Source: Antarctobacter albus
GTDB taxonomy: Bacteria; Pseudomonadota; Alphaproteobacteria; Rhodobacterales; Rhodobacteraceae
Length of the DNA stretch: 64,000 nucleotides
Assembly: GCF_900101505.1 (NCBI RefSeq)
Contig: NZ_FMZI01000012.1
Location: 62,001 to 126,000, forward strand
Direction: 5' to 3'
A program made the position numbers and the translations under genes. A model generated the notes under the pieces. It was not told the origin of the DNA and searched no databases. It saw nothing but the letters and a program-made list of their open reading frames with translations. Shown in pieces: positions 5,844-46,556 of this stretch. Position 1 is the stretch's first letter. Every line of letters starts with the position of its first letter.

Positions 5844-5899
5844 CAGGACCGCCCCACCCCGCGCCTTGCGGCGCCGGGAAAGGCGGTCGGGGAGTAACC

Positions 5900-6943
<1,044 letters not shown>

Positions 6944-31620: not shown

Positions 31621-32310
31621 ATGACGATTTCGATCCTTGCATACGATGAAAAAACAGGCCGCTACGGAGGTGCCGCCACCACGGGCAGTCTCTGTGTCGG
31701 CGGCTGGGTTCTGCGCGGGGATGCCGAATCGGGGATGTCGGCCTCACAGGGGTCCCTGCCCTCGACCATGTGGGGGACAGAGACGCTCGCCCTGATGAAA
31801 TCCGGGCTTTCCGCACGGGACGCCGTGGAGCGTGTGACCGGCGCCGACAGCGGCCGCGGCCAGCGGCAGCTGGCGACGCTGGACCCGACAGGCGGCACCG
31901 CCAGCTTTACCGGCGCCGACAGCATCCAGGCGGCGGGCGCGCGCAGTGCGGACAAGGTGATCGTCACCGGCAACCTGCTCTCTTCCGAGGAGGTGCTGCA
32001 AGCGATGCTGGACGGGTTCCTCGCCGCCGAGGGCGCATTCGACCTGCGCCTGCTGGCCGCGCTGGATGCGGCCGCGGCCGCCGGGGGCGACAGCCGGGGG
32101 CTGCTCTCTGCCGCGCTGTTGATCGTCGGGCGGGACATGGCGCCGCTGACCCTGCGCGTGGATCATTCGGCGACACCTCTGGCCGATCTGCGGGCGCTGC
32201 ACCAGCGCGCCACCAGCGGCGACTATGCCGACTGGGCCGTCATGGTGCCAACGCTCGACGACCCCGAGCGCGCCACCCCCTACGGTGCGAAGACCGACCA
32301 GCCGGTGTAA
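31621..32310 (+). CDS. DUF1028 family protein
   Basis: A 229-residue DUF1028 protein, an Ntn-hydrolase-like family often linked to amino acid or peptide metabolism and annotated with no firm function. Typical blocks are SILAYDEKTGRYGGAATTGS, ESGMSASQGSLPSTMWG, TGADSIQAAGARSADKVIVT and GNLLSSEEVLQAM. It starts 118 bp from the divergent transporter gene and its 3' end overlaps the convergent glutaminase by 31 bp. Shared operators suggest co-regulation with peptide import. A peptide- or amide-hydrolase role is a guess. Confidence 0.82.
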   Translation: MTISILAYDEKTGRYGGAATTGSLCVGGWVLRGDAESGMSASQGSLPSTMWGTETLALMKSGLSARDAVERVTGADSGRGQRQLATLDPTGGTASFTGADSIQAAGARSADKVIVTGNLLSSEEVLQAMLDGFLAAEGAFDLRLLAALDAAAAAGGDSRGLLSAALLIVGRDMAPLTLRVDHSATPLADLRALHQRATSGDYADWAVMVPTLDDPERATPYGAKTDQPV

Positions 32311-33203
32311 CCGGCGATCCGTTCGGCCAGCCAGGTGCCCACCTGCGAGTTGCCATAGCCGTCCAGCCCCGGCGACCAGACCGCGATCGAGGCGACGCCC
32401 GGCGCCACCAGCAGAATCCCCCCGCCCACCCCGCTCTTGCCCGGCAGGCCGACGCGAAAGGCGAAATTGCCCGAGCCGTCATACTGCCCGCAGGTCATCA
32501 TCAGCGCATTGATCCGCCGCGCCCGGAGCGGTGAGATCATCGCCGGCACGCCGGGCAGCATCGCCAGCATCCGCCCCGCCCGCGCCAGTTGGCGACAGGT
32601 CATCTCGATGGCGCATTGATGGGCATAGGTGCCCATGACCATCTCGGGCGGGTTCAGCAGGTTGTCATGCGATTGCAGGTAGTACAGCAGCGCCATATTG
32701 CGGCTGGCCGTGGCCTTTTCCGACTCCGCCACCGCCTTGTCGATGTGGATGTCGTCATCCTCGGCCGCGGCGCGGACAAGGTGCATGATTTCGGACAGCG
32801 CCTGCCGGGGTTCACGCCCGCCCAAGAGCGCGTCCGTCGTCACCAGGGCCCCCGCGTTGATGAAAGGATTGCGTGGGCGGCCGTTCTCATGCTCCAGCAG
32901 AAAGATGCTGTCGAAGGCGGTGCCAGAGGGTTCGCGCCCGACCCTGCGCCAAAGGTCATCCCCCAGCCGCCCCAGAACGGCCGCCAGCGAAAACACCTTC
33001 GAGATGCTCTGGATCGAAAAGGGCCTGTCCGCCTCCCCTGCCCCGAGCTCCGTCCCGTCGGCCAGACAGAGGGCAACCCCTACCTGCGCCGGATCGACCT
33101 TGGCCAGTTCGGGGATGTAATCTGCGGGACGGCCCCAGTCGCCCGCGCCCCGCGCCTCGGCCACGAGGCGTTCCAGCTCTTTCGCCAGTCCGTCCATGCT
33201 CAT
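32280..33203 (-). CDS. glsA: Glutaminase A
   Basis: A 307-residue beta-lactamase-fold glutaminase that converts glutamine to glutamate and ammonia. The active-site S-x-x-K is in FSIQSISKVFSLAAV. Other family blocks are ENGRPRNPFINAGALVTTDA, EMVMGTYAHQCAIEMTCRQL and the C-terminal GLPGKSGVGGGILLVAPG. It is cytoplasmic. Its ATG overlaps the upstream gntR stop by ATGA, so it is translated with the regulator and probably induced with the transporter. The 3' end overlaps the DUF1028 gene on the other strand. Confidence 0.93.
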   Translation of the reverse strand: MSMDGLAKELERLVAEARGAGDWGRPADYIPELAKVDPAQVGVALCLADGTELGAGEADRPFSIQSISKVFSLAAVLGRLGDDLWRRVGREPSGTAFDSIFLLEHENGRPRNPFINAGALVTTDALLGGREPRQALSEIMHLVRAAAEDDDIHIDKAVAESEKATASRNMALLYYLQSHDNLLNPPEMVMGTYAHQCAIEMTCRQLARAGRMLAMLPGVPAMISPLRARRINALMMTCGQYDGSGNFAFRVGLPGKSGVGGGILLVAPGVASIAVWSPGLDGYGNSQVGTWLAERIAGYTGWSVFAP

Positions 33204-33973
33204 TCCGCCATGAATCGTTTCATGACCACCGCCTCCTGGTCCTCCATCAGGCGGCGTGCCATTTCCATGTGTTCGCGCATGATGGCCCGGGCGGCCTCGG
33301 CATCGCCGTTGCGCAGCGCCTCGACCAGTCCCGCCTGGTGGTCGCGTCCCTGCCGCCAGAGTTCGTGGTTCGGCTTGGAATAGAGGCGTTTGTAGACGGT
33401 CAGGTCGGCCAGGATCTGCGCCATGAAGCCGATGAAGAACCCCAGCAAGGCGTTGTCCGCAAACTCAGCCAGGCGCGCGTGGAACACCAGCGAGGCGACA
33501 TGCTGGGCGCGTTCGCCCTCGGCATCTTCGGCGGGTTCGGCATAGGTGGTCATGATCCGCCCCAGCTCTGCCAGTTGTTCCGGCGTCAGCCGCCCGGCCA
33601 AAGAGGCCGCCAGCTCCGGTTCCAGCGCGATGCGCACCTGGTAGATGTCGTCGATCGAGATATTGCGGAAATAGAAATAATTGCCCAGCAGCGCATGGGC
33701 CCGGTCCTTGCCGACCTCGCCCACGAAACTGCCACCGCCCGGGCCGGTCTTGGTCACCACAAGGCCCTGCGCCTGCAACAGGCGCATCGCCTCGCGGATC
33801 GTGCCCTTGGACATGCCGAATTCGGCGATCAGCTCTGCCTCGCCGGGCAGACGGTCGCCGGGTTGCAGCCCGCGTTCGACCACCCAGTCCTTGATGGCCT
33901 CGGCCACGCGCACCGGGCGCGACCGGCGCGTGCCATCGCGTGTCAGGGGGCCGGGGCCTTGCAGGCCGGTCAT
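33200..33973 (-). CDS. GntR family regulator, FadR (FCD) subfamily
   Basis: A 257-residue regulator with an N-terminal winged HTH (LPGEAELIAEFGMSKGTIRE, AMRLLQAQGLVVTK) and a C-terminal all-helical FCD effector domain (IYQVRIALEPELAASLAGRL). The ATG at 33973 is chosen; a TTG at 34012 would add 13 residues and start just beside the operator. TCATGATAGATTCAAG at 34017-34032 matches the repeats in the transporter promoter, so autoregulation and control of the peptide-transport/glutaminase genes is likely. The ligand is unknown. Confidence 0.88.
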   Translation of the reverse strand: MTGLQGPGPLTRDGTRRSRPVRVAEAIKDWVVERGLQPGDRLPGEAELIAEFGMSKGTIREAMRLLQAQGLVVTKTGPGGGSFVGEVGKDRAHALLGNYFYFRNISIDDIYQVRIALEPELAASLAGRLTPEQLAELGRIMTTYAEPAEDAEGERAQHVASLVFHARLAEFADNALLGFFIGFMAQILADLTVYKRLYSKPNHELWRQGRDHQAGLVEALRNGDAEAARAIMREHMEMARRLMEDQEAVVMKRFMAE

Positions 33974-34016
33974 TTGGGACGGGTCCGTGACGACATTGCC
34001 AGAGACAAGCAATTCA

Positions 34017-34062: not shown

Positions 34063-35094
34063 TCACAGATTTTCGGATGTATGAATGTCGAAATCCAGCA
34101 TGACGTTCTGCGCCCCGGCGTCCGGCCCGGCGCGTTTGGACTTGACCAGCGCGGCCAGGGTCTGGCGGGCCAGGGCCTCCATCGGGTGCGATATCGCCAT
34201 CGTCAGCGTACCGTCGAAAAGCGCCCTGCGCGTGACATCCATCAGTTCATAGCCCACCGCGACAAAACCGGGACGCCGGGGCGCCTCGCGCAGGGCGGCC
34301 AATGACCCGGTGATCCCCCCGCCAGAGATGAAAATCCCGCACATCTCGGGGTGCTGGGCAAACAGGTCTTCGGTCATCTCGCGCGCCACATCTGCCGATT
34401 CAAAGGTCGCGCGCGGCTCCAACAGGGTGAAACCGGAGGCGTTCTCGCGGAAATAAGAGCGAAAGCCGCTCTCGTTCAGGTCCTGGTTGCGGTAGCGCGT
34501 GTTGCCGACAAGGATGCCGATTTCGCCCCTCTGGTGGCAGATCTTGTCAAAGGCCCAGGCGGCGGTGCGCCCTACCTTGAAACTGTCCAGCCCCACGTAG
34601 CCGACATTCCCCCGTGCGGTCAGGGGGGTGATCAGCCCCATGACCGGGGTGCCCCGCAGCAGCAGGGAATCGATCGCATCGGTGATGAGAGGATGTTCCG
34701 CGGCCACCAGTGCCACCGAATCGCAATTCGCGCCAAGCTGTCTCAGCCGGTCTGCCACGACCTCGGGCGAAAGGTCGTCCAGAAACTCCAGGGTCAGTTC
34801 GATCCGGCCATCGGTGTGCTCTTCGGCAGCCTGCCGAAAGGCCGCGCCAAGGTCGCGGTAGAACGGGCGCCGCTCTTGCAAGAGCAACACGCCCGGGCGA
34901 TGCACCTCCCGGCCGGCGTGGACGGAATATTCAATTGCCCCAAGGCCATAGAACCCGATCTCCTGCGCCGCCCGCAGCACCCTTTCCCGGGTCGGCTGGC
35001 GCACGCTGTCGGCCTTGTTGATCACCCTGTTGACCGTCGAAACCGAGACGCCCGCAGCCTCTGCCAGGTCAGGAATTGTCGGTCGTTTCACCAT
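34063..35094 (-). CDS. LacI family transcriptional regulator
   Basis: A 343-residue LacI-type repressor. The N-terminal HTH (TIPDLAEAAGVSVSTVNRVI) and hinge are followed by a periplasmic-binding-protein-like sensor (PGVLLLQERRPFYRDLGAAF; GNVGYVGLDSFKVGRTAAWA), which suggests a sugar or cyclitol effector. It is divergent from a 12-gene catabolic and transport operon starting at 35269, with TGAAA-containing repeats in the 174-bp gap. It probably represses that operon until the transported sugar-like substrate is present. Confidence 0.9.
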   Translation of the reverse strand: MVKRPTIPDLAEAAGVSVSTVNRVINKADSVRQPTRERVLRAAQEIGFYGLGAIEYSVHAGREVHRPGVLLLQERRPFYRDLGAAFRQAAEEHTDGRIELTLEFLDDLSPEVVADRLRQLGANCDSVALVAAEHPLITDAIDSLLLRGTPVMGLITPLTARGNVGYVGLDSFKVGRTAAWAFDKICHQRGEIGILVGNTRYRNQDLNESGFRSYFRENASGFTLLEPRATFESADVAREMTEDLFAQHPEMCGIFISGGGITGSLAALREAPRRPGFVAVGYELMDVTRRALFDGTLTMAISHPMEALARQTLAALVKSKRAGPDAGAQNVMLDFDIHTSENL

Positions 35095-35105
35095 GTCGGG
35101 GTCAC

Positions 35106-35156
35106 TTCATTTCGTTTCATCTTGGTTGGCGCGTGAACTGAAATGATATGAAATCA
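35106..35156. promoter_or_regulatory. Candidate LacI operator repeats
   Basis: TTCATTTCGTTTCAT (35106-35120) and TGAAATGATATGAAATCA (35139-35156) lie between the divergent LacI gene and the moc-like operon. Both contain TGAAA-type half sites 10 bp apart, facing each other. The arrangement suits repression of both directions. Confidence 0.45.
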
Positions 35157-35268
35157 CTCTCATCACATCAGCAAGCTTGATTTGATGCAGGTCAATTCGT
35201 CAAGAAAACATGCATCGGTCGGCGCAGTTTTCTGCCAGCGCCGATGAGACGCTGGGGAGGGCGCACTC

Positions 35269-36297
35269 ATGGATGATCTGCAGTACGGCACCCGTGACAA
35301 ACGCGGCAACTGGGCCCCGAACGCGCCTTTGGAAATCGCCCCCTTCTGGCTGGGCAAGTTCAACAAGATGGGTGCTTTCCTGGTCGACTACCTCTGGCCC
35401 TGGAACGCCTTTCACATGGCGACGGCCCTGCTCTACTGGGTCTTCGTGATCCCCGACACCCAGACGCTGGCGACGCTCAGCTGGGGCTGGCCGCTCTACC
35501 TGTTGGTGGTGAACATGGCGGGCATCTTCGCGATGTATGGCGCCATCGAGCTGTTCTACTACGTTCGGCGCAGGCAGGGCACGCGGTTCAAGTACAACGC
35601 CAAGTTCCCCGCCGAGACGCCCTCTGACGTGTTCTGGTTCAAGAGCCAGAACCTGGACAACTTCCTGCGCAGTTTCCTCATCGGCATCCCGATCTGGACC
35701 GCGGTCGAGGTGCTGATGCTCTGGTGCTACGGCAATGGCATCCACGCCTTCGGCTGGGTCGACTGGCAGGACAACTGCCTGTGGCTGGTGGCGCTGACGC
35801 TGCTGGTGCCCGCCATCCACGAGATCCACTTCTTCTGCATCCACCGCCTGATTCACACGCCGTTTCTCTACAAGCACATCCATTCGGTGCATCACAACTC
35901 GATCAACCCGTCGCCCTGGTCGTCGCTGTCGATGCACTGGATCGAACACACGCTCTATTTCGGCGAGATCGTCTGGCACCTGCTGATCCCGTCGAACCCG
36001 ATCGTGATGATGTTCAACAGTCATGCCGTCGGCTACGGCGCCATCAACGGGCACATCGGCTTTGACAAGCTGGAGATCACCGACGAGACCGCGCTCGATA
36101 GCCACGCCTACGCTCATTACCTGCACCACAAGTATTTCGAGGTGAACTATGGCGCCGACGGGCTGGTCCCGCTCGATAAGTGGCTGGGCTACTGGCACGA
36201 CGGCACCAAGGAAGCGGACGAACGCATGAAAGAGCGGTTCCGCAAGAAGAAAGAGCGCATGAAGCCCCGGAAGACCGGCGCCACCGCCGCCGAGTGA
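35269..36297 (+). CDS. Sterol desaturase/fatty acid hydroxylase superfamily membrane protein, first copy
   Basis: A 342-residue integral membrane diiron oxygenase with the eight-histidine pattern of the family: HEIHFFCIHRLIH, KHIHSVHHNSINPSPWSS and HAYAHYLHHKYFEVNYG. Several hydrophobic segments lie before the first box (YLLVVNMAGIFAMYGAIELF). The family hydroxylates or desaturates lipids and sterols, but its use in small-molecule catabolic operons is known. It is the first gene of the LacI-linked operon and has a tandem paralogue directly downstream. The substrate is unknown. The start at 35269 has GGGAGGG upstream. Confidence 0.88.
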   Translation: MDDLQYGTRDKRGNWAPNAPLEIAPFWLGKFNKMGAFLVDYLWPWNAFHMATALLYWVFVIPDTQTLATLSWGWPLYLLVVNMAGIFAMYGAIELFYYVRRRQGTRFKYNAKFPAETPSDVFWFKSQNLDNFLRSFLIGIPIWTAVEVLMLWCYGNGIHAFGWVDWQDNCLWLVALTLLVPAIHEIHFFCIHRLIHTPFLYKHIHSVHHNSINPSPWSSLSMHWIEHTLYFGEIVWHLLIPSNPIVMMFNSHAVGYGAINGHIGFDKLEITDETALDSHAYAHYLHHKYFEVNYGADGLVPLDKWLGYWHDGTKEADERMKERFRKKKERMKPRKTGATAAE

Positions 36298-36325
36298 GCA
36301 AGCCGACGCCAGGGAGGACCAAGCG

Positions 36326-37351
36326 ATGGACGATCTGAAACACGGCACCCGCGACAAGCGTGGCAACTGGGCCCCCAGGGACCCCGTCGCCGGGGTGGCC
36401 CCCTTCTACGCCCTGCCGCCGAAACCGATGGAGCTGCTGGCCTGGCTCAAGGGCTACCTCTTTCCCTGGAACCTGCTCTTTTTCATCTCGGCACTGGTCT
36501 ACTGGGCCTGGGTGATCCCGCCGGTGGCGGTCATGCAGACCCTGGCCTGGGGCTGGGTGCTGAAACTCCTTGCGCTCAACGCGCTCGGCATCGCCCTGTT
36601 CTACGGCGCCTTCGAGCTGCGCCTCTACATGCAGCGGGCACAGCACACCCGGTTCAAGTACAACGCCAAGTTCCCCGCCGACCAGAAATCCGGCGTGTTC
36701 TGGTTCAATGACCAGCAGATCGACGGCGCCCTGCGCACCTTTCTGCACGGCGTGCCGATCTGGACCGCGCTAGAGGTCGGCGCGCTCTGGGCCTATGCCA
36801 ACGGCTATGCGCCCTGGCTGGCCTGGGCCGATCACCCGGTCTGGCTGGCACTGATGGTCTTCCTGGTGCCTTTCATCCAGGAGGCGCATTTCTACTGCAT
36901 CCACCGGCTGATCCATGTGCCCTTTCTCTACAAGCACGTGCATTCGGTGCACCACAACTCGGTCAACCCTTCGCCCTGGTCGTCGCTGGCCATGCACCCG
37001 GTGGAACACCTGCTCTACTTCGGTGTCGGCCTGTGGCACCTGATCCTGCCGTCCAACCCCTTCATCATGTTGTTCCAGATGCACCGCGCGGCATTCGGGG
37101 CGATCCCGGGGCACGTCGGCTTTGACAAGATGGAACTGGGTGGCGACCGGGCGATCGATATGCACGCCTACGCCCATTACCTGCACCACAAGTATTTCGA
37201 GGTGAACTACGGCGACGGCATCGTGCCCTTCGATGCGCTGTTCGGCACCTGGCACGACGGCACCAAGCAGGCCGACGAAAAGATGAAGGCGCGTTTCCGG
37301 GACAAGAAGGCCCGCGCAAACGCCCGGAAAGGCGGCATGCCCGCCGAATAA
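36326..37351 (+). CDS. Sterol desaturase/fatty acid hydroxylase superfamily membrane protein, second copy
   Basis: A 341-residue paralogue of the preceding gene, sharing its start (MDDLKHGTRDKRGNWAP against MDDLQYGTRDKRGNWAP) and all histidine boxes (QEAHFYCIHRLIH, KHVHSVHHNSVNPSPWSS, HAYAHYLHHKYFEVNYG). By eye about half the residues are identical, with most change in the membrane segments. The pair arose by tandem duplication and may form a heteromer or act on different substrates. It lies 28 bp after the first copy. Confidence 0.88.
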   Translation: MDDLKHGTRDKRGNWAPRDPVAGVAPFYALPPKPMELLAWLKGYLFPWNLLFFISALVYWAWVIPPVAVMQTLAWGWVLKLLALNALGIALFYGAFELRLYMQRAQHTRFKYNAKFPADQKSGVFWFNDQQIDGALRTFLHGVPIWTALEVGALWAYANGYAPWLAWADHPVWLALMVFLVPFIQEAHFYCIHRLIHVPFLYKHVHSVHHNSVNPSPWSSLAMHPVEHLLYFGVGLWHLILPSNPFIMLFQMHRAAFGAIPGHVGFDKMELGGDRAIDMHAYAHYLHHKYFEVNYGDGIVPFDALFGTWHDGTKQADEKMKARFRDKKARANARKGGMPAE

Positions 37352-37460
37352 GGAGCGACCCGCCCAGGCGTGCGAGGAGGCACCCGGGCGATCCGCAAAA
37401 CCCATCACGACTGACCAATGCCGTCCGACCGACGACGGCAAACAGGGGAGGAGACCCTAA

Positions 37461-38429
37461 ATGAAACTGAGCACGTTCCTTGCGACCACCGCCGCCCTCG
37501 CCATCGGCGCATCGGCCGTCTACGCCGAAGGCGCGGACATCTTCGTCATCGGCGGCAAGCCCGACGATCCGTTCTGGTCGATCGTCAAGCGCGGCGCCGA
37601 AGACGCGGCCCTCGTGGTCGAGGCACAGGGCGGCTCCGTCACCTGGCTGGGCCCGCAGAACTACGACAACCTCGGCGTGGACGCGGCGGAACTGATCCGC
37701 CAGGCCATCGACCAGGGCGCCGATGGCGTCATCGGCCCGAACTGGGTCCCCGAGGCGATGGACCCGGCCTTTCAGGCGGTCGTGGACGCGGGCATCCCGC
37801 TGGTCATCTACAACGCCGGCGGCCTCGAGGCCGCCGACCGGCTGGGCGCGCTGAACTACGTCGGCGCGGTCGATTACCTGGCCGGTGTCGCCGGCGGCGA
37901 ATGGCTGGGCAACAACGGCGGGACCGTCGGGCTCTGCGTCAACTCGCTGCCCGGCGCGGCCAATATCGAGGATTACTGCAACGGGTTCGCCGAGGGCATG
38001 GAGAACACCGGCCACACCGCGACCACCCTGCCCCTGCCCGCGACCGCCCAGGGCAACGTGACCGCCGTGGCCCAGGCCGTGCGCGCGCACCTGCTGCAGA
38101 ACCCGGACATCAACGCCGTCTTCGCCACCGCGAACCTCGATGCCGTCGGCATCGTCCAGGGAATCCAGCAGGCGGGCAAGGCCGGCCAGGTGCAGATCTG
38201 CGGCATCAACTTCGACGAGGCGATCCTGACCAACATCAAGAGCGGTCAGCAGGCCTGCGCCATCGACCAGCAAGGGTATCAGCAGGGCTTCTACGCCGTG
38301 TCGATCCTGAACGGACACATCAACTACGGCCTGTCGATCCCGACTCGCGAGATCCTGACCGGCCCCGGCGTCGTCGATGCGTCGAACATCGACGCCACCA
38401 TGCTGGGTGCGGGCAAGGGCACGCGCTGA
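37461..38429 (+). CDS. Ribose/rhizopine-type ABC transporter substrate-binding protein (MocB-like)
   Basis: A 322-residue periplasmic-binding protein of the RbsB class, with a Sec signal (MKLSTFLATTAALAIGASAV, cut after VYA). Sugar-binding fold blocks include KPDDPFWSIVKRGAEDAALV, QAIDQGADGVIGPNWVPEAM and NINAVFATANLDAVG-like DINAVFATANLDAVGIV. In moc-type clusters such a protein binds rhizopine or inositol-like compounds. It is followed by two permeases and one ATPase. Confidence 0.9.
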   Translation: MKLSTFLATTAALAIGASAVYAEGADIFVIGGKPDDPFWSIVKRGAEDAALVVEAQGGSVTWLGPQNYDNLGVDAAELIRQAIDQGADGVIGPNWVPEAMDPAFQAVVDAGIPLVIYNAGGLEAADRLGALNYVGAVDYLAGVAGGEWLGNNGGTVGLCVNSLPGAANIEDYCNGFAEGMENTGHTATTLPLPATAQGNVTAVAQAVRAHLLQNPDINAVFATANLDAVGIVQGIQQAGKAGQVQICGINFDEAILTNIKSGQQACAIDQQGYQQGFYAVSILNGHINYGLSIPTREILTGPGVVDASNIDATMLGAGKGTR

Positions 38430-38526
38430 GCGCCCCACGGGCACCGGGCCGCGCCGCCGCGCGCGGCCCATCCTTCACGACAAACGGGAGGCCGGGCGCC
38501 TTTGACGCGACCGGAACGGGAGAGAC

Positions 38527-39546
38527 ATGTCACCTGACGCGCCAAGAACCAGCGGCCCAGCCGCGAGCATCGGCAACCTGATCCGCCGGCCCGAATTCGG
38601 AACCCTGATCGGGACGATCGTCGTCTACGCCTTCTTCGCCAGCCTCGGCGGCAAGGTGTTTCTCGGCGCGCCCGGCTGGTCCGCCTTCCTGACGATGGCG
38701 GCCGAGGTCGGCATCATCGCCCTCCCCGTCGGCCTGTTGATGATCGCCGGAGAGCTGGACATTTCCGTGGGCGCCGTCGTACCCGCCGCCGCGCTGACCT
38801 GCGCGTTGGTGTCCGGCCACTACGATCTGCCCACCTGGTACGGCGTCCTTGCCGGGCTCGCGGTCGGGCTGATGATCGGTTTCATCAACGGCTACCTGGT
38901 GTCGCGCACCGCGATCCCCTCGCTCATCATCACCATCGGCACGATGTTCGGCACGATGGGCCTGACCCTGGGACTGACGGTGCTGATCGCGGGATCGACC
39001 GGGGTCTTCATGACGCCCGACCCGGTGGCCAAGCTGATGCTGGGCGAGTCCATCAACTTCATGTTTCGCGTCACCATCTTCTGGTGGCTGGGCTTTGCCC
39101 TGGTGATCTACTACCTGCTGCACGTCGCGCCCTGGGGGAACTGGGTCTTTGCCCTGGGCGGCGACCGCGACAGCGCGCGCAATGCCGGCATCCCGATCCG
39201 CCGCGTGACCATCGGCCTCTACATGCTCAGCGGTTTTGCAGCGGCCTTTGTCGGCGTCAGCCAGGTGCTGACCTTCGGCAGCGCGCAGGTCGCGGCGGGA
39301 CAGGCCTTCATCTTCAACTCGATCATGTGCGTGGTCATCGGCGGCGTGCTGCTGACCGGCGGTGCCGGGTCGGTGGTGGGCATCGTGCTGGGCACACTGA
39401 CCTTTTCCATCGTCAACCAGGGCATCTTCTTCAGCGGACTCGATCCGAACTACGGCAGCATCATCATCGGGGCGCTCCTGCTGATCGCGGTGATGTCCAA
39501 CGACACCTTCCGCAAGCTCGCCCTGAGCTACGCGACCAAGAAGTGA
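38527..39546 (+). CDS. Ribose-type ABC transporter permease 1
   Basis: A 339-residue RbsC-type inner-membrane permease with many hydrophobic helices. The conserved ribose-permease region is seen as VGLLMIAGELDISVGAVVPA and LVSRTAIPSLIITIGTMFG, with GDRDSARNAGIPIRRVTIGL in the coupling part. It lies 97 bp after the binding protein gene across a GC-rich hairpin, which fits excess binding protein. It is paired with the next permease, so the channel is probably a heterodimer. Confidence 0.9.
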   Translation: MSPDAPRTSGPAASIGNLIRRPEFGTLIGTIVVYAFFASLGGKVFLGAPGWSAFLTMAAEVGIIALPVGLLMIAGELDISVGAVVPAAALTCALVSGHYDLPTWYGVLAGLAVGLMIGFINGYLVSRTAIPSLIITIGTMFGTMGLTLGLTVLIAGSTGVFMTPDPVAKLMLGESINFMFRVTIFWWLGFALVIYYLLHVAPWGNWVFALGGDRDSARNAGIPIRRVTIGLYMLSGFAAAFVGVSQVLTFGSAQVAAGQAFIFNSIMCVVIGGVLLTGGAGSVVGIVLGTLTFSIVNQGIFFSGLDPNYGSIIIGALLLIAVMSNDTFRKLALSYATKK

Positions 39547-39556
39547 GGCCGGGACC

Positions 39557-40555
39557 ATGACAGACCTCTTCGGAACCTTCCTGCGCAAGCCCGCCGCGGG
39601 CGCCATCCTCAGCCTGGTCGGCGTGATCGCCTTCTTCGTGATCTTCGGCGGCGTGGACCTGGGCAAACTGGCGGGCGCCGCCAGCTGGGTGAACTTTGCA
39701 GCCAACCTCGGGATCGTGGCCATTCCGGTGGGCATGCTGATGATCGCGGGCGAGCTGGACATCTCGATCGGGGCGATGATCCCGGCGGGGTCGATGACCA
39801 CCGCCATCGTCTCGGGCCATTACGAACTGCCCATCGCCGTCGGCATGATCTGCGCGCTGGGTCTGGGCGTGATCGTGGGCACGATCAACGGCGTGCTGGC
39901 CAACCGCACCACGGTCCCCTCGCTGATCATCACGCTGGGCACGCTGGTCGCCATGCAGGGTGTCGTCCTGGCCGCCGCCAAGATCCTGACCGGCAAGGCC
40001 AGCGTCGCGCTGACCGCCCCGGACTGGGCCAAATTCACCTTTGGCCAGCTGATCGGCGGCAGCCACCAGGTCATCATCCTGTGGTGGATCGCGCTGGCGC
40101 TGGTCCTGTGGTTCGTGATGCATGCCACGCGCTACGGCAACTGGATCTTCGCGATGGGCGGCGACAAGGACAGCGCCCGCAACGCCGGCATTCCCGTCCG
40201 CCAGATGACCGTCGCGCTCTTCATCCTGTCGGCCACGGCCGCCAGTTTTACCGGCATGTGCCAGGCGATCCTGTTCAATTCGGCCCAGGTCTCGGGCGGC
40301 ATGAACATCATCTTCAACGTGATCGTCAGCGTCGTCGTCGGCGGCACCCTGCTGACCGGCGGCTTTGGCTCTGTGGCCGGGATCTTCTTTGGCACGCTCA
40401 CCTTCGCGGTGGTCAACCAGGGCATCTACTTTACCCAGATCGACCGCAACTGGTCGAACCTGATCATCGGGGTGATGCTGCTGGTGGCCGTCGCCATGAA
40501 CGAAAACTTCCGGACCCTGGCGATGACCGCCGTCCGCAAGAAGAAACCCGCTTGA
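39557..40555 (+). CDS. Ribose-type ABC transporter permease 2
   Basis: A 332-residue RbsC-type permease, clearly paralogous to the one upstream: VGMLMIAGELDISIGAMIPA, LANRTTVPSLIITLGTLVAM and GDKDSARNAGIPVRQMTVAL. It begins 10 bp after the first permease stop. Two different permeases with a single-domain ATPase is an uncommon but known variant of the ribose family. Confidence 0.9.
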   Translation: MTDLFGTFLRKPAAGAILSLVGVIAFFVIFGGVDLGKLAGAASWVNFAANLGIVAIPVGMLMIAGELDISIGAMIPAGSMTTAIVSGHYELPIAVGMICALGLGVIVGTINGVLANRTTVPSLIITLGTLVAMQGVVLAAAKILTGKASVALTAPDWAKFTFGQLIGGSHQVIILWWIALALVLWFVMHATRYGNWIFAMGGDKDSARNAGIPVRQMTVALFILSATAASFTGMCQAILFNSAQVSGGMNIIFNVIVSVVVGGTLLTGGFGSVAGIFFGTLTFAVVNQGIYFTQIDRNWSNLIIGVMLLVAVAMNENFRTLAMTAVRKKKPA

Positions 40556-40572
40556 GAGGGAGGCCCGGACCA

Positions 40573-41397
40573 ATGGCTGACAAGACCCCCGTGATCGAAC
40601 TTCGCAATGTCGACAAGAGTTTCGGCCCCATCGACGTGCTGCATGAAATCTCGCTCAAGGTGAACGAGGGCGAGGTGCTCTGCCTGCTGGGCGACAATGG
40701 CGCTGGCAAGTCGACGCTGATCAAGACACTGGCCGGCGTGCATCAACCCACCCGCGGAGAGATCCTGCTGGACGGCCAGCCGGTGCGCTTTTCCCGGCCC
40801 AAGCAGGCACAGGAAATGGGCATTGCCACGGTGCACCAGTTCGGCGGCACCTTTCCCCTGATGTCCATCGGGCGCAGCTTTTTCGCCGGAGTCGAACCGA
40901 CCCGGGGCTGGGGGCCGTTCAAGGTCTACGACCGCAAGACCGCCAACCGGATCGCCGTCGAGGCGGTGCAGAACTTCGGCATCACCCGCATCGACGACGG
41001 CGACCGCCTGGTCGGCGGCCTGTCGGGCGGGGAACGGCAGTCGCTGGCCATCGCCCGCGCGGTGCATTTCGGCGCCCGCGTGCTGATCCTCGACGAGCCG
41101 ACCGCCGCGCTGGGGGTGAAACAGGCCGCCCATGTCCTGCGCATCGTGAACGAGGCCAAGCGGCGCGGGCTGGCGGTGATCTTCATCACCCACCAGGTCA
41201 TGCACGCGATGGCCGTGGGCGATCATTTCGCCGTCCTGATCCGTGGCGCCATCGCCGCCGACTTCCGCAAGGGCGAGAAGACCCGCGAGGAAATCGCCGA
41301 CCTGATGGCCGGTGGCGAAAGCATGGCCGACCTGGAATCCAGCATCGAAGGCTACATGGAAAGCCATGACGGCCATGTGCCGCCGCCGGTGCACTGA
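40573..41397 (+). CDS. Ribose-type ABC transporter ATP-binding protein
   Basis: A 274-residue single-domain ATPase: Walker A LLGDNGAGKSTLIKTLAG, Q-loop VHQFGGTFPLM, signature LSGGERQSLAIARAV, Walker B VLILDEPTAAL and H-loop VIFITHQV. Most ribose importers have a double ATPase (RbsA); this half-size form must dimerise, as in FrcA-like and moc-type systems. Start ATG at 40573, 17 bp after permease 2. Confidence 0.9.
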   Translation: MADKTPVIELRNVDKSFGPIDVLHEISLKVNEGEVLCLLGDNGAGKSTLIKTLAGVHQPTRGEILLDGQPVRFSRPKQAQEMGIATVHQFGGTFPLMSIGRSFFAGVEPTRGWGPFKVYDRKTANRIAVEAVQNFGITRIDDGDRLVGGLSGGERQSLAIARAVHFGARVLILDEPTAALGVKQAAHVLRIVNEAKRRGLAVIFITHQVMHAMAVGDHFAVLIRGAIAADFRKGEKTREEIADLMAGGESMADLESSIEGYMESHDGHVPPPVH

Positions 41398-41490
41398 GGT
41401 CTTTCACATCATGCAAACGCCCTCGTGGCGTTTGACGGCAACGCGTTCGCGGGCATCCTTCGCGAACCCAATATCATGACGGAGCACAAG

Positions 41491-42495
41491 ATGAGCATTC
41501 GCATCGCCGTGATCGGCGCGGGACTGATGGGGGCCGATCACGCCGCAATCGTGGCAGAGGACCTGCCCGGGGCCACCCTTCAGTTGGTCTGCGACATGGA
41601 CGCCGCCCGCGCGCGCGCGGTGGCTGACAGGCTGGGCGCCACCGATGTCTCGACCGATCCAGAGGCCGCCATCGCCCGCGACGATGTCGACGCGGTCATC
41701 ATTGCCAGCCCCGATTTCACCCATGCGCCGCTCAGCACGGCCTCTATCCGCGCGGGCAAGCGGGTGCTCTGCGAGAAACCCCTGTCGCAATCGCCGCAAG
41801 AATGCATCGAGGTCATGCAGGCCGAAGAGGCCGCGGGGGCCAAACACGTCATGCTGGGCTTCATGCGCCGCTACGACCAGTCCTACGTCGAGATGAAAGA
41901 GGCGCTGACAGGCGGCCAGCTGGGCCGCGCGCTGATGATGCACAACTTTCACCGCAACGTGGAAACCCCGGCGGCCGATTTCACCGGCGCGATGGCGATC
42001 ACCAATTCCGCGCCGCATGAGTTCGACGTGGTCCGCCACGTCCTGAACTGCGACTACACCGCGATCTCTGCCTACCAGCCCCGGCGATCGGACTCCGTGG
42101 TGGCCCCGGTCGTCATGGTGCTGGAAACCGATGACGGCCAGCTTGTGACCATCGAGGTCAACAACAACGCCGCCTACGGATACGACGTGCGCGCGGAACT
42201 GGTGGGCGAGCAGGGCAGCATCGCCACGAACAACGTCGCCTACACCCGCACCGACATGAAACTGGCCGCCGCCACCCGCTACGAGGCCGACTGGCGCGGG
42301 CGCTACCACGAGGCCTACGTCCGCCAGAACCGCGACTTCCTGCGCTTTGTCGAAACCGGCGCCTTCCCGGCGACGGCTGCGGATTGCTGGGACGGCTACT
42401 GCGCCGCGCAGGTCGCGCAGACCGGCGTCACCGCGCTGGAAACAGGTCGGAAATGCGCGGTCCAGATGATCGCCAAACCGGAGTTCTACGCATGA
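41491..42495 (+). CDS. Gfo/Idh/MocA family dehydrogenase
   Basis: A 334-residue NAD(P)-dependent oxidoreductase. The Rossmann start is IRIAVIGAGLMGADHAAIVA and the family motif CEKPLSQSPQECIEVM contains the conserved Glu-Lys-Pro. The catalytic His region is SAPHEFDVVRHVL. It is close to MocA and inositol 2-dehydrogenases and probably oxidises the imported cyclitol or sugar. The ATG at 41491 is chosen because GGAG stands 6 bp before it; an earlier ATG at 41476 is possible. Its stop overlaps the next start by ATGA. Confidence 0.9.
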   Translation: MSIRIAVIGAGLMGADHAAIVAEDLPGATLQLVCDMDAARARAVADRLGATDVSTDPEAAIARDDVDAVIIASPDFTHAPLSTASIRAGKRVLCEKPLSQSPQECIEVMQAEEAAGAKHVMLGFMRRYDQSYVEMKEALTGGQLGRALMMHNFHRNVETPAADFTGAMAITNSAPHEFDVVRHVLNCDYTAISAYQPRRSDSVVAPVVMVLETDDGQLVTIEVNNNAAYGYDVRAELVGEQGSIATNNVAYTRTDMKLAAATRYEADWRGRYHEAYVRQNRDFLRFVETGAFPATAADCWDGYCAAQVAQTGVTALETGRKCAVQMIAKPEFYA

Positions 42496-43451
42496 AACTT
42501 GGCTTTGTCTCCGACAGTCTCGGCGCCATGTCGCTGGACGACATGCTGGCCCATGCCCGGCGCATGGGTGTATCCGGCATCGAGGTGAACACCTGCGGCT
42601 GGACCACCGCACCGCATTTCGACCTGGCCAAGATGCTGGGCAATAGCGCCGCGCAAAAGGCCTATCGACAGAAATTCGCGGATCACGGGCTGGAGATCAT
42701 CAGCCTGAATGCCAACGGCAACCCGCTGCATCCCACCGACCGGACCCAGGGGGATGCCCTGTTGGACACGATACGCACCGCCGGCGAAATGGGGATCGAG
42801 ACGGTCTGCACCATGTCCGGCCTGCCCGCGGGCGCACCCGGCGACACCATGCCGAACTGGGTGGTCTCCTCCTGGCCGCCGGAGACGCAGGAGATCCTGC
42901 GCTTTCAATGGGACGATGTGCTTTTGCCGTTCTGGGAGGGCGTCGCCGCCGTCGCCCGCGAAAGCGGCGTGAAACGGATCGCGCTGGAGCTGCACGGCAA
43001 CCAATGCGTCTACAACGTGCCCTCGCTGTTCAAGCTGCGCGAGGCCATCGGCCCGGTGATCGGCGCCAACCTGGACCCCAGCCACCTGATGTGGATGGGC
43101 GCCGACCCGCTGGTCGCCGCCGAGGCGCTGGGAGAGGCCATCTACCACGTCCACGCCAAGGACACGCTTCTGAACGCGCCGGTGCAGGCGACGACATCGC
43201 TGCTGGAAAACGGCTCTCTCATGGATATCCCGGCGCGCAGCTGGTCCTACATCACGCTGGGTTTTGGCCACGGCGAGGAATGGTGGCGGCAGTTCTGCTA
43301 CCGGCTGCGGATGGCGGGTTACGACGGCTGGCTGTCGATCGAACACGAGGACGTCCTGCTGAACGCGCTCGAAGGGTTGGAGAAATCCGTGGCGCTCCTG
43401 CAGAACGTGATGCCCTCGGCCCCGGCCGATTTCAAACCGCAGGAGATCTGA
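42492..43451 (+). CDS. Xylose isomerase-like TIM-barrel protein (MocC/IolE-like)
   Basis: A 319-residue sugar phosphate isomerase/epimerase family protein (AP_endonuc_2 fold). It begins MKLGFVSDSLGAMSLDDMLA and shows metal-site regions IALELHGNQCVYNVPSL, GANLDPSHLMWMG, YHVHAKDTLLN and WLSIEHEDVLLN. Close relatives include MocC of rhizopine catabolism and IolE/IolI enzymes that dehydrate or isomerise inosose. It overlaps the MocA-like gene by 4 bp and is followed 4 bp later by the desaturase gene. Confidence 0.86.
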   Translation: MKLGFVSDSLGAMSLDDMLAHARRMGVSGIEVNTCGWTTAPHFDLAKMLGNSAAQKAYRQKFADHGLEIISLNANGNPLHPTDRTQGDALLDTIRTAGEMGIETVCTMSGLPAGAPGDTMPNWVVSSWPPETQEILRFQWDDVLLPFWEGVAAVARESGVKRIALELHGNQCVYNVPSLFKLREAIGPVIGANLDPSHLMWMGADPLVAAEALGEAIYHVHAKDTLLNAPVQATTSLLENGSLMDIPARSWSYITLGFGHGEEWWRQFCYRLRMAGYDGWLSIEHEDVLLNALEGLEKSVALLQNVMPSAPADFKPQEI

Positions 43452-43455
43452 GCCA

Positions 43456-44517
43456 ATGCCCCGCGACTACAGCCTGACCGGGCCGGATGCCCGCCGCGCC
43501 GTCGATGCGGGGCTGGTGACCGAGGACTGGTACAGAACGCCCATCGACCGCAAGCAGATGAAGGCGCTGATGAAACGTGCCGATCAGCCCGCCATCCGCG
43601 ACACGATCCTTCTGTTCGGGCTGATGGTGGTCCTTGCAGGGATCGCCATCGCGCTGATGCCCTCATGGTGGTCCGTGCCCTTCTGGCTTGCCTATGGCGT
43701 GCTTTATGGGTCGGCGATGGACTCGCGCTGGCACGAATGCGGGCACGGCACCGCCTTCAAGACGCGCTGGATGAACCAGCTTGTCTACCAGGTCGCCTGT
43801 TTCTGCATGATGCGCGACCCGTGGTGCTGGAAATACAGCCACGCCCGGCACCATTCCGACACGATCATCGTGGGCCGCGATCCGGAAATCGCCATCATGC
43901 GGCCGGTCGTGGCGCTCAAGGTCGCCTCGAACCTTCTGGGGCTGGTCGATGTGCCCGACGGGCTGCGCCGCATGGTCGTCCATGCCTCTGGCCGGATGCT
44001 GCCGGACGAGGAGACCTATGTCGAAGCGGTCTTTTACCCGAAAACCTTCCGCACCGCGCGGATCTGGCTGGCGATCTACGCGCTGACCGTCCTGACCGCC
44101 GTCCTGTTCCTGTCCTGGGTCCCGTTGCTGCTGATCGGCCTGCCGCGCCTGTACGGCTGCTGGCACATGGTCCTGACCGGCTGGCTGCAACACGGCGGGC
44201 TGGACGACAACGCGCTGGATCACCGGCTCAACAGCCGCACGGTCTACATGAACCCGGTCAGCCGCTTCATCTACTGGAACATGAACTACCACGTCGAACA
44301 CCACATGTTCCCGCTGGTGCCCTATTACCGCCTGCCGGAGCTGCACCGGGTCTGCGCCTTTGATTTCCCGGCGCCGAACAGATCGATCCCGCAGGCCTTT
44401 GCCGAGATGCTGCCAGTGCTCTGGCGCCAGCGGCACGACCCCGATTTCCACCTGCGCCGTCCCCTGCCCGACAGCGCCCACCCCTACCACGACGGCCCGC
44501 GCGCCAGCGCCGGCTGA
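43456..44517 (+). CDS. Fatty acid desaturase family oxygenase (MocD-like)
   Basis: A 353-residue membrane diiron protein with three histidine boxes, HECGHG (about residue 95), HARHHSD (about 130) and NYHVEHHMFP (about 275), and four or more hydrophobic segments. In rhizopine catabolism MocD is the oxygenase that with ferredoxin MocE removes the O-methyl group of L-3-O-methyl-scyllo-inosamine. The next gene here encodes a MocE-like Rieske ferredoxin, so a demethylase pair is likely. No reductase gene follows. A lipid desaturase role is the alternative. Confidence 0.85.
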   Translation: MPRDYSLTGPDARRAVDAGLVTEDWYRTPIDRKQMKALMKRADQPAIRDTILLFGLMVVLAGIAIALMPSWWSVPFWLAYGVLYGSAMDSRWHECGHGTAFKTRWMNQLVYQVACFCMMRDPWCWKYSHARHHSDTIIVGRDPEIAIMRPVVALKVASNLLGLVDVPDGLRRMVVHASGRMLPDEETYVEAVFYPKTFRTARIWLAIYALTVLTAVLFLSWVPLLLIGLPRLYGCWHMVLTGWLQHGGLDDNALDHRLNSRTVYMNPVSRFIYWNMNYHVEHHMFPLVPYYRLPELHRVCAFDFPAPNRSIPQAFAEMLPVLWRQRHDPDFHLRRPLPDSAHPYHDGPRASAG

Positions 44518-44535
44518 CAGACCAAGGAGACCCCA

Positions 44536-44847
44536 ATGGCAGACTGGATTGACGCCTGTGCCGCAAGCGACATCGACGAAGAGGACGTGATCCGTTTCGA
44601 TCACGGCAGCCGGACTTTCGTGATCGTGCGCGACCACCAGGACAACTACTATTGCACCGACGGGCTGTGCACCCACGAGGACGTGCACCTTGAAGACGGG
44701 CTGGTGGTCGAGGCGACCATCGAATGCCCCAAGCATTCGTCGATCTTCGACTGTTCCACCGGAGAGGTGGAAACGCCGCCCGCCTGCGAGAACCTGCACA
44801 CCTATCCCACCAAGGTCGAGAACGGCCGCGTCTTCGTCGAACTGTGA
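44536..44847 (+). CDS. Rieske [2Fe-2S] ferredoxin (MocE-like)
   Basis: A 103-residue soluble Rieske ferredoxin. The cluster ligands are Cys45 and His47 in CTHEDVHL and Cys64 and His67 in CPKHSSIFD. Length and motif spacing fit oxygenase ferredoxins such as MocE. It lies 18 bp after the desaturase gene and should feed electrons to it. The matching ferredoxin reductase (MocF) is not in this operon, so a reductase from elsewhere must serve it. Confidence 0.92.
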   Translation: MADWIDACAASDIDEEDVIRFDHGSRTFVIVRDHQDNYYCTDGLCTHEDVHLEDGLVVEATIECPKHSSIFDCSTGEVETPPACENLHTYPTKVENGRVFVEL

Positions 44848-44940
44848 GGCGGCGACCCGGCCCCGGCCCCGGACCCGACCTGGGGCCGCGGGCCAATCTG
44901 ACAGTCCGATCCGTCGGCCCCCCACACGAAAGGAAAGCGC

Positions 44941-45714
44941 ATGACCTTCCAACTCGCCGCCTGCGCGGAAATGCTCTGGCTGGACAAGCCCATCGCCTGG
45001 CGCGCCGCGCGCCTGCACGAGATGGGCTTTGGCGTCGGTCTCTGGAACTGGCCCGAATGGGACCTGGATGCACTGGAAAAAACCGGCGCCAGTTTCACCA
45101 TCATGAACGGCTATCTGCGCGGCCGCCTGTCGGATGCCGAAGGCGCCGACCTGCTGGTGAACTCCGCCCGTGAAACCGCGCAGGTCGGCAAGCGGCTGGG
45201 CGTCGCGCGGCTGAACCTGCACGGCACCGGCCTGGGCGACGGCGGCCTGCCGATCCCGCAGCACACGGCCTATGCCCCCGGCATGTGGCTGCGCGCGCGC
45301 GATACGCTGCACCGGATCTGCGACATGGCCGAGGAAGAGGGCGTGACCTTCACCCTGGAGAACCTCAACCTGCGCGAACATCCGGGCTGTCCCTTCAACA
45401 CGAGCGCCGACGTGCTGTCGCTGGTCTCGGCGGTGGACCGGCCGCAGCTGCGCATCAACCTCGATCTGTACCACACCCAGATCGGCGAGGGTGACGTGAT
45501 CCGCTGGGCCGAGGCCTGCCTGCCCTGGATCGGAGAATACCAGGTCGCCGACAACCCGGGCCGGTTCGAGCCGGGGACCGGAGAGATGAACTATCCCGTC
45601 ATCGCCCGCGCGCTGGCCGACATGGGCTATGATGGCCCGGTCGCCTTCGAGGGCTATGCCAAGACCGATCCCGAAACCGCGCTGGAGGCCTTCCGCGCGG
45701 CCTTCACGGTCTGA
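44941..45714 (+). CDS. Hydroxypyruvate isomerase-like TIM-barrel protein
   Basis: A 257-residue sugar phosphate isomerase/epimerase of the Hyi type: ARLHEMGFGVGLWNWPEWDL, RLNLHGTGLGDGG, FTLENLNLREHPGCPF, INLDLYHTQIGEGD and VADNPGRFEPGTGEMNYPVI. The Glu, Asp, His and Glu metal ligands at strand ends appear kept. It follows the ferredoxin gene after 93 bp. Hydroxypyruvate isomerisation or another keto-aldose step in breakdown of the imported substrate is probable. Confidence 0.86.
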   Translation: MTFQLAACAEMLWLDKPIAWRAARLHEMGFGVGLWNWPEWDLDALEKTGASFTIMNGYLRGRLSDAEGADLLVNSARETAQVGKRLGVARLNLHGTGLGDGGLPIPQHTAYAPGMWLRARDTLHRICDMAEEEGVTFTLENLNLREHPGCPFNTSADVLSLVSAVDRPQLRINLDLYHTQIGEGDVIRWAEACLPWIGEYQVADNPGRFEPGTGEMNYPVIARALADMGYDGPVAFEGYAKTDPETALEAFRAAFTV

Positions 45715-45731
45715 CGTCAAGGAACGATCCC

Positions 45732-46556
45732 ATGAGCATCTACCACAACCGTCCGCTTGTCTCGGACATCCGCGCCATGAAGAAACGCGGCGAAAAGATC
45801 TCGATGCTTTTCGTCACCACCCCAGACGAGGCCGCCGCGGCCGCCGAAGCCGGCATCCACATGCTGTCGATCGAGGGCCGGTTCTTCGACGCTGAAATGC
45901 GCGAGGCGGCGGGCGACTGTTTCGTCCAGGTCGGCCTGCCCTACGGCGGCTGGGGCAGTTTCCAAGGCCGCCCGCTGGCCACCGGAGAGGACTACTTGCG
46001 CGCCGCCTTCCACTACGCGGCGCTTGGCGGCGACGCGGTCTATTGCGCGGCCTCCTACGACATCCAGAAACTGCTGTGCGACAATCACATCGCGGTGGTG
46101 GGCCACATCGGCCTGATCCCGTCCTACATCACCTGGACCGGTTGGCGCGCGGTGGGCAAGACTGCCGACGAGGCGCTGGCCCTGTGGCACCATACGCAGA
46201 TGCTGGAACGTATCGGCGTCTTCGGCGCCGAGCTGGAAGTCGTGCCGGACCGCGTGGCCAGGTACCTGACCGAAAACTCCTCGCTGGTCATGCTGGGCAT
46301 GGGGGCGGGTAAATACGCCGATGCGCAGTATCTCTTTACCGAGGATGTCTGTGGCTATGGCAAGACCCACAAGCCGCGCCACGGCAAGACCTACCGCAAC
46401 TTCGCGCCCGAGCTGGAAAGACTGCAGGCCGAACGCATCGCCGCCTTCAGGGAATACAAGGCCGACGTGGACAGTGGCGGGTATCCGGCGGATCAGCACA
46501 GCGTCACGATCCAGGACGCCGAGTTCGACGCCTTCATGGCCGCGGCCCGCGCCTGA
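45732..46556 (+). CDS. PanB-like (ketopantoate hydroxymethyltransferase fold) protein, divergent
   Basis: A 274-residue protein with the PanB opening SDIRAMKKRGEKISMLFVTT and the mid-protein region VVGHIGLIPSYITWTGWRAV, matching the HLGLTPQ region of PanB. The metal-binding GDS motif of true PanB is replaced by IEGRFFD, and the second acidic ligand region also differs, so a different reaction is expected. PanB itself adds a hydroxymethyl group from methylene-tetrahydrofolate. It lies 18 bp after the isomerase gene and is the last gene of the operon. Confidence 0.75.
   Translation: MSIYHNRPLVSDIRAMKKRGEKISMLFVTTPDEAAAAAEAGIHMLSIEGRFFDAEMREAAGDCFVQVGLPYGGWGSFQGRPLATGEDYLRAAFHYAALGGDAVYCAASYDIQKLLCDNHIAVVGHIGLIPSYITWTGWRAVGKTADEALALWHHTQMLERIGVFGAELEVVPDRVARYLTENSSLVMLGMGAGKYADAQYLFTEDVCGYGKTHKPRHGKTYRNFAPELERLQAERIAAFREYKADVDSGGYPADQHSVTIQDAEFDAFMAAARA

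Follow-up and report, generated by a model that had tools for sequence, protein, structure and literature searches.

Gene content of the operon and its membrane oxygenases

The window analyzed here, a stretch of 64,000 nucleotides from Antarctobacter albus (contig NZ_FMZI01000012.1, positions 62,001 to 126,000 of the forward strand), contains at positions 35269-46556 an operon of 12 genes on the same (+) strand, with a divergent gene for a LacI-family regulator upstream (Table 1). A preliminary description made from the sequence alone had proposed a 12-gene operon with MocA-, MocB-, MocC-, MocD- and MocE-like genes under the control of a LacI regulator. All of the named open reading frames were found to be open and in the order claimed, the domain families were confirmed, and the LacI gene was located on the minus strand. 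The genome is 5.26 Mb in size, with the operon on its contig 29, and the closest relatives of the operon in our genome collection are those of Mameliella.

Table 1. The 12 genes of the operon and the adjoining regulator gene, in window coordinates.
Feature	Position	Strand	Basis and remarks
LacI-family regulator	34063..35094	-	divergent from the operon; 36.6% identity to the FixV-type LacI that adjoins mocD in Rhizobium johnstonii
FAH1, FA_hydroxylase (PF04116) membrane oxygenase, proposed cyclitol O-demethylase	35269..36297	+	Pfam, homologs
FAH2, divergent paralog of FAH1	36326..37351	+	Pfam; 60% identity; branches outside the FAH1 clade
CUT2-type periplasmic binding protein (Peripla_BP_4)	37461..38429	+	Pfam; closest solved structure 4ru1
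Permease 1 (BPD_transp_2)	38527..39546	+	Pfam/NCBIfam
Permease 2 (BPD_transp_2)	39557..40555	+	Pfam/NCBIfam
ATP-binding cassette (ABC) ATPase, single domain	40570..41397	+	Pfam
MocA-like Gfo/Idh dehydrogenase, nearest to the bifunctional inositol 2-/D-chiro-inositol dehydrogenase IolG	41425..42495	+	Pfam/NCBIfam
MocC-like TIM-barrel isomerase/epimerase/dehydratase (PF01261)	42492..43451	+	Pfam/NCBIfam
MocD-like FA_desaturase-type membrane oxygenase	43456..44517	+	Pfam, homology
MocE-like Rieske ferredoxin	44536..44847	+	C-x-H ... C-x2-H motif, homology
Hydroxypyruvate-isomerase/ketose-3-epimerase-like TIM barrel (PF01261), proposed inosose isomerase	44941..45714	+	Pfam/NCBIfam
PanB-like protein with the PanB fold, lacking the metal/keto-acid ligands; proposed to accept the one-carbon unit	45732..46556	+	NCBIfam, alignment, model

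The Pfam and NCBIfam scan covered 11 of the proteins, with MocE and LacI outside it, and supported the family assignments. At the level of exact function, the PanB-like, MocA-like, binding and isomerase proteins all remained under the curated cut-offs of PanB, IolG, the rhizopine binding protein and hydroxypyruvate isomerase, respectively; the MocA-like dehydrogenase scored 256.3 and 205.6 bits against two IolG equivalogs with cut-offs of 540 and 355 bits.

The two proteins at the front of the operon, FAH1 and FAH2, had been described as paralogous eight-histidine membrane proteins, which was borne out: they are 60% identical, score 53.7 and 68.6 bits against a PF04116 cut-off of 31, and share the boxes HX3H, HX2HH and HX2HH, and each of the eight histidines is conserved in 99% or more of 101 close homologs. 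The tandem arrangement itself, present in the window, is rare elsewhere, as a same-strand FAH tandem was seen in 2 of 80 loci (L011 and L017 in our numbering of loci). A recent tandem duplication was considered but found no support, as FAH2 lies outside the FAH1 clade, near the rows of other loci (FastTree; some forks are weak and long branches were flagged); on this tree FAH2 appears to be an older paralog and not a fresh copy. No match to FAH2 was found among the PDB sequences at E<=1. At one further locus (L121:2704-9241), a FAH2 relative adjoins a CUT1-type transporter (SBP_bac_8, two BPD_transp_1 and an ATPase with TOBE_2), and because of these neighbors the FAH2 family may serve other sugars too.

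Conservation of the operon and its linkage to inositol genes

A scan of genome contigs with FAH1 yielded at least 95 relatives, of which the best 80 loci were kept. Nearly all belong to Alphaproteobacteria, mostly Rhodobacterales and Rhizobiales, and two to Betaproteobacteria (L080 and L082). Sixty-four loci were counted as long, extending 9.5 kb or more beyond the FAH start, although a long locus may still end before a given gene; genes were counted per locus with identity limits of our own choosing, set after the data had been seen. Within the long loci, relatives of the binding protein were present in 61, of the permease and the ATPase in 59 each, of LacI in 58 and of MocE in 55; the PanB-like gene was found in 50, the isomerase in 49, and MocE and PanB-like together in 48. 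Lower counts were obtained for IolG (29), MocA (19), MocC (18) and MocD (5), as well as for ferredoxin reductase (13), PurU (11), FolD, iolE and iolD (4 each). On the basis of these counts, the constant core consists of FAH, the transporter, MocE, the isomerase and the PanB-like protein, with the MocA-MocC pair and MocD in a minority. As this arrangement is found in many genomes, it is not a matter of chance. Some of the locus sets overlap, since L113/L114 with L028, L122 with L030, and L115 with L081 each appear, from their equal lengths, to be one contig. In L008, L015, L028 and L036, two binding protein-permease sets stand in tandem before one shared ATPase, which hints at two related substrates per operon.

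Relatives of IolG, iolE or iolD were found in 31 of the 64 long loci. In Rhizobium multihospitium (L044), the cluster runs on into IolG (428.1 bits, above the cut-off of 355), a ferredoxin--NAD reductase, PurU and FolD; IolG relatives with 85-93% identity to that of L044 occupy the same position in other Rhizobium, Shinella, Ensifer, Labrys and Tabrizicola-type loci, some of which also carry relatives of the L044 reductase, PurU and FolD. A run that reaches into the iol genes was seen on G311 contig 220 (L113-L114), to judge from its length the same contig as L028, which is from Vannielia litorea EBW16. It begins with LacI, FAH, two binding protein-permease sets, the ATPase, MocA, MocC, MocD and MocE, continues with the isomerase, the reductase, the PanB-like gene, a Gfo/Idh gene, IolG and PurU, and ends with iolC (689.6 vs 600 bits), iolD (867 vs 715), iolE (367.8 vs 290), a PhyH protein, iolB (344.9 vs 205) and a second FAH. 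The PhyH-family (Fe/2-oxoglutarate) gene between iolE and iolB (L114:7642-8799) has a 62% relative in L170 at 12215. As PHYHD1 and related dioxygenases were reported in 2025, in the available text of PMC12709175, to demethylate 2'-O-methylated nucleosides, this gene may encode another O-demethylase.

The association was also examined over 390 genomes of the order Rhodobacterales, with the presence of iolD over its cut-off read from per-genome E-values. All 18 genomes of the FAH clade carried iolD, compared to 228 of 372 others (one-sided Fisher p 2.0e-4), as did 50 of the 56 genomes with a PanB-like gene (E<=1e-30), compared to 196 of 334 others (one-sided Fisher p 2.6e-6); these p values overstate the case, since the genomes are related to one another. 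The FAH-clade set was cut at E<=2.5e-104 (query FAH2), where identity drops from 49 to 44%, a limit chosen after the data had been seen. Among the matches listed, iolD lay within 25 kb of 11 of 63 PanB-like places (ca. 1.0 expected) and of 5 of 22 FAH-clade places (ca. 0.3 expected); the former count was derived from 14 hand-listed pairs, two of which share one iolD, and the expected numbers are based on 1.3 copies of iolD in a genome of 4 Mb, an estimate of our own. The window operon itself holds no iol gene over cut-off, and the best iolD of this genome is on another contig (C27).

The PanB-like protein and the rhizopine loci

The PanB-like protein scored 79.1 and 100.2 bits against two curated PanB families, below their cut-offs of 207.55 and 272. 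Its AlphaFold model (predicted local distance difference test, pLDDT, 82.7; predicted template modeling score, pTM, 0.84) is weak at 130-138 and 207-221. A structure search of the PDB with this model returned PanB at all of ranks 1 to 28, with a Foldseek E of 9.6e-17 to 3vav; the matches listed comprise PanB and related TIM barrels. In an alignment of 96 PanB-like sequences with Escherichia coli PanB and the genome's own PanB, D84 is replaced by G and K112 by Y in 95 of 96 members, D45 is lost in 88 and kept in only 8, and H136 and E181 are kept in all 96. The residues D45, D84 and K112 are those that we take to be the metal and keto-acid ligands of PanB. The protein thus shares with PanB (ketopantoate hydroxymethyltransferase) the fold and the E181 and H136 positions, and differs from it in the three lost residues and in a score under the family cut-off; judged from the alignment, its keto-acid/metal site appears to be changed and part of the catalytic face kept. 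A role as a true PanB in pantothenate synthesis was rejected, as the ligands are lost and a separate PanB over cut-off is encoded elsewhere in the genome.

Of 63 places with PanB-like genes in Rhodobacterales, the best 30 were inspected for their surroundings. At 27 of these, one of them in the window and one (L144) with a partial match to MocE, a gene for MocE, MocD or FAH lies within 1.5 kb; at the other three (L139, L145 and L146) a FAH gene is on the same contig, ca. 11 to 14 kb away. A unit of LacI, MocD, MocE and PanB-like stands beside iol genes and a permease-ATPase set both in genomes without the FAH clade (L168-L171, L176) and in one that has it (L175). Plasmids carry such genes as well: 273 of 72,556 plasmid records gave PanB-like matches, mainly from Rhizobium (142) and Sinorhizobium (87), and among the matches listed many are named 3-methyl-2-oxobutanoate hydroxymethyltransferase and others are unannotated. 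The order on an Agrobacterium HAMBI 105 plasmid is MocD-MocE-reductase-PanB-like-PurU-FolD, and further examples come from Rhizobium johnstonii, R. leguminosarum, S. meliloti p_2 and Rhizobium sp. SL42 (with IolG). On a plasmid of Bradyrhizobium sp. 184 (L195:6950-11496), PanB-like, FAH, Rieske, epimerase and reductase genes form a row in which FAH takes the place of MocD. The PanB-like protein is hence a general partner of the membrane oxygenase/ferredoxin genes. Because its neighbors include FolD and PurU, we infer that it transfers formaldehyde-level carbon to tetrahydrofolate.

The same partnership was found in rhizopine loci. MocDEF removes the methyl group of rhizopine. A 1998 paper by Bahar et al. 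names it, in its title, a ferredoxin oxygenase complex. In S. meliloti RCAM1115 (L189), a pyridoxal-phosphate (PLP)-type regulator was identified as the rhizopine regulator MocR (756.5 vs 650 bits) within the order dehydrogenase, binding protein, MocR, MocD, MocE, reductase, PanB-like, PurU. A search with this MocR gave 14 plasmid records, and nine MocR-bearing loci (L189 and eight more) were examined. A PanB-like gene and, next in order, purU lie behind mocD-mocE-reductase in all nine, FolD follows PurU in six, and iolE is nearby in seven; in L201 and L203 the PanB-like gene is in pieces (in L203 also PurU and MocR) and may be broken there. In four of the remaining records (NZ_CP021805.1, NZ_CP021827.1, NZ_CP021830.1 and NZ_CP120366.1), coordinates place the PanB-like gene ca. 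3 kb behind MocR; NZ_CP021824.1 was left out. The mocD gene of RCAM1115 is split and unannotated (L189:6254-7323), and gave a one-piece match in the eight other loci. In the available text of two papers, the published rhizopine gene lists give mocCABRDEF or mocDEF only (PMC10107442, PMC6668481). The PanB-like gene, earlier overlooked, and purU are additions to the known rhizopine loci, and they fit the fate of the methyl carbon, as rhizopine is 3-O-methyl-scyllo-inosamine. It had been stated that the additions in the window operon are foreign to the rhizopine pathway; for the PanB-like gene this proved wrong.

The window operon shares with the rhizopine mocCABRDEF genes of Sinorhizobium meliloti L5-30 and Rhizobium leguminosarum a sugar-type binding protein, a Gfo/Idh dehydrogenase, a TIM-barrel protein, a MocD-type oxygenase and MocE, and the PanB-like and PurU genes also stand behind mocDEF in MocR-bearing loci. 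Its MocD-like and MocE-like genes are adjacent, with 55-59% identity to those in the MocR loci. It differs in having two added FA_hydroxylase-type oxygenases, an extra isomerase and its own permeases and ATPase, and in lacking the MocF ferredoxin reductase, the role of which could best be filled in this genome by genes on C26 and C15 that share 43% identity with the L113 reductase. A MocR-type regulator (NF052281) was not found beside the operon in a search limited to the locus. With LacI in the place of MocR, the operon does not belong to the known type of rhizopine operon; it is best read as a relative of the rhizopine system that is under LacI control and carries additional FA_hydroxylase-type oxygenases. 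In Pseudomonas syringae from woody hosts, mocDEF has been described beside a second xylose-isomerase gene and without mocCABR, in the available text of PMC5132102; if our interpretation holds, these genes might act on an O-methyl polyol.

Substrate of the operon and the link to FixV

Taken together, these results make it probable that the operon imports inositol methyl ethers (pinitol, ononitol or their kin), removes their methyl groups oxidatively and feeds the cyclitol into inositol catabolism. Support for the substrate class comes from gene linkage, whereas the exact substrate and the PanB-like reaction are proposals. In this scheme LacI would be a repressor sensing the substrate or a derivative, and the CUT2 ABC transporter, whose family is clear, would take up the inositol methyl ether. 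FAH1, FAH2 and MocD would be alternative membrane diiron oxygenases that receive electrons via MocE from a ferredoxin reductase encoded elsewhere and hydroxylate the O-CH3 group to a hemiacetal, which would release the free cyclitol and a formaldehyde-level one-carbon unit. The PanB-like protein would pass this unit to tetrahydrofolate, with FolD and PurU, linked to it in relatives, yielding formate, and conversion of the cyclitol to an inosose for the iol pathway would presumably fall to the MocA-like dehydrogenase and the two TIM barrels, MocC-like and isomerase-like. The MocA-like protein is nearest to IolG, and relatives of the operon hold a true IolG, sometimes with iolC, iolD, iolE and iolB in a run. 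The binding protein has its best match, by sequence and by fold, in 4ru1, a structure whose ligand may be myo-inositol.

Rhizopine use was reported to need inositol catabolism, in the available text of PMC5789663. The same paper supplies independent expression data in favor of the scheme: Rhizobium mesoamericanum exposed to Mimosa root exudate (top component pinitol, 145 uM) showed mocDEF homologs up 1.5- to 2.1-fold, a mocB-type transporter up 4- to 4.7-fold, and iol genes and idhA up. This was read by the authors as rhizopine use; an alternative reading is that pinitol was the inducer, and other exudate compounds are possible too. In the available text of PMC6668481, a MocB/MocR biosensor was active with scyllo-inosamine and its methyl ether, with pinitol and ononitol in the test set.

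Several observations weigh against an inositol methyl ether as the substrate. Given the biosensor result, the rhizopine system itself provides no evidence for pinitol. No window protein exceeded any inositol or rhizopine equivalog cut-off. In the fold ranking for the binding protein, where the matches listed are sugar-binding proteins, the Caulobacter inositol-binding protein is only 40th. Relatives of MocA and IolG are both absent from 20 of the 64 long loci, 12 of them from Mesorhizobium; the PanB-like gene is absent from 14 (in some, as L028, because the locus ends), and the reductase, PurU and FolD are present in just 13, 11 and 4. iolD is common in any case, occurring over cut-off in 246 of the 390 Rhodobacterales genomes and in 56 of the 78 whose FAH homologs are all of the more distant kind. 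Our literature search found no work on this operon, hence no reported substrate, mutant or assay.

The best surviving alternative, which we regard as unlikely, is that the operon serves O-methylated sugars or other methylated osmolytes, the inositol linkage reflecting a shared oxygenase cassette and not a shared substrate. It would account for the more distant PanB-like/MocD units beside other transporters, the CUT1-type transporter next to the FAH2 relative in L121, the 6 of 56 PanB-like genomes without iolD over cut-off and the 20 long loci without a clear inositol dehydrogenase; it does not account for a MocA-like protein nearest to inositol dehydrogenases among the named families, the IolG, iolE or iolD relatives in 31 long loci, or the iolC, iolD, iolE and iolB genes that follow in L114. 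The undescribed route for a methylated cyclitol via membrane diiron oxygenases, as initially proposed, is supported and narrowed by gene linkage to inositol methyl ethers, a sugar or other osmolyte being less likely.

We consider it improbable that the PanB-like protein performs an aldol or retro-aldol reaction on a branched or 2-keto intermediate, for example from the C-methyl cyclitol laminitol, with the oxygenases hydroxylating the C-methyl group. The PanB fold, the kept E181 and H136 equivalents and the occurrence of C-methyl inositols in marine algae would suit such a reaction; against it speak the loss of the metal/keto-acid ligands in almost every member and the presence of the protein in MocR-bearing loci, whose substrate bears an O-methyl group. 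Slighter still is the chance of a rhizopine operon under another regulator. The five Moc-like genes do occur together, and the low score of the binding protein against the rhizopine binding protein NF052284 (151.5 vs 420 bits) is a weak test, since the L189 binding protein beside MocR likewise gave no match at E<=1e-25; against this stand LacI in place of MocR and the wide occurrence of this operon type in sea and freshwater Rhodobacterales, from which we know of no rhizopine. That FAH1 and FAH2 act on membrane lipids as chance neighbors, as the Pfam name fatty acid hydroxylase might suggest, is very improbable, since among the 64 long loci, which span several orders, FAH adjoins the binding protein in 61 and occurs together with MocE in 55.

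With regard to regulation, a shared palindromic operator was sought in the gap between LacI and FAH (76 loci and the window) and none was prominent, the commonest exact 8-base palindromes occurring in 3 of 77. The window gap (35095-35268) contains repeated TTTCAT/ATGAAA-like blocks, and a ten-mer, TGATATGAAA, was found in 14 of 77 gaps and is possibly part of an operator. On the other side of LacI, glutaminase-like and GntR genes (window 32280-34012) adjoin it, a pair matched beside LacI in just one of the 80 loci, that of Mameliella sediminis (L011); loci cut at that end, such as L003, are uninformative. Downstream of the operon, opposite-strand genes read from their sequences as quinone-oxidoreductase-like, TetR-like, PaaX-like and PaaZ-like appear unrelated.

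FixV activates nifA2 in Mesorhizobium loti, possibly in answer to an inositol derivative, and FixV homologs beside mocDEF have already been noted, both in the available text of PMC3538637. The M. loti genome to which L065 belongs has a FixV-type LacI gene (L218:7285-8355) immediately ahead of nifA (4911-6650; 734.3 vs 528.85 bits). In a FastTree analysis, FixV (Msi360) falls inside a clade of 34 LacI regulators, 23 of them beside MocD; L220 bears the label FixV by our own assignment, nifA not having been found beside it. By this tree, the rhizobial LacI regulators of the MocD cassette appear to be the FixV family. The window LacI, a more distant relative, groups with the LacI regulators of FAH operons and differs in this from FixV with its control of nifA2. 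Lotus nodules accumulate pinitol and ononitol, the former of which is transported across the symbiosome membrane, in the available text of PMC8730688. Because FixV groups with regulators of MocD units and Lotus nodules hold these compounds, an O-methyl inositol is a testable FixV ligand.

What is new is the one-carbon cassette of PanB-like, PurU and FolD, its presence in MocR loci, and the finding of two membrane oxygenase families in the same place. Tentatively, and with less confidence than for the operon itself, these may all be parts of a widespread O-demethylation cassette that captures one-carbon units: a FA_hydroxylase- or FA_desaturase-type diiron oxygenase, a Rieske ferredoxin, a reductase and a PanB in a new role, the loading of the methyl carbon onto tetrahydrofolate for FolD and PurU. 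Such a cassette might serve marine and soil bacteria for inositol methyl ethers and have been overlooked in the rhizopine operon, and the inositol derivative of FixV might be pinitol, ononitol or a product of them. Inositol methyl ethers are common in legumes, and our literature search turned up nothing published on bacterial genes for the demethylation of pinitol or ononitol. The operon provides a concrete gene set for this step, proposes a function for a large group of PanB-like proteins, adds a panB-like gene and purU to the rhizopine loci, and points to testable ligands of FixV and thereby to a link with nitrogen fixation.

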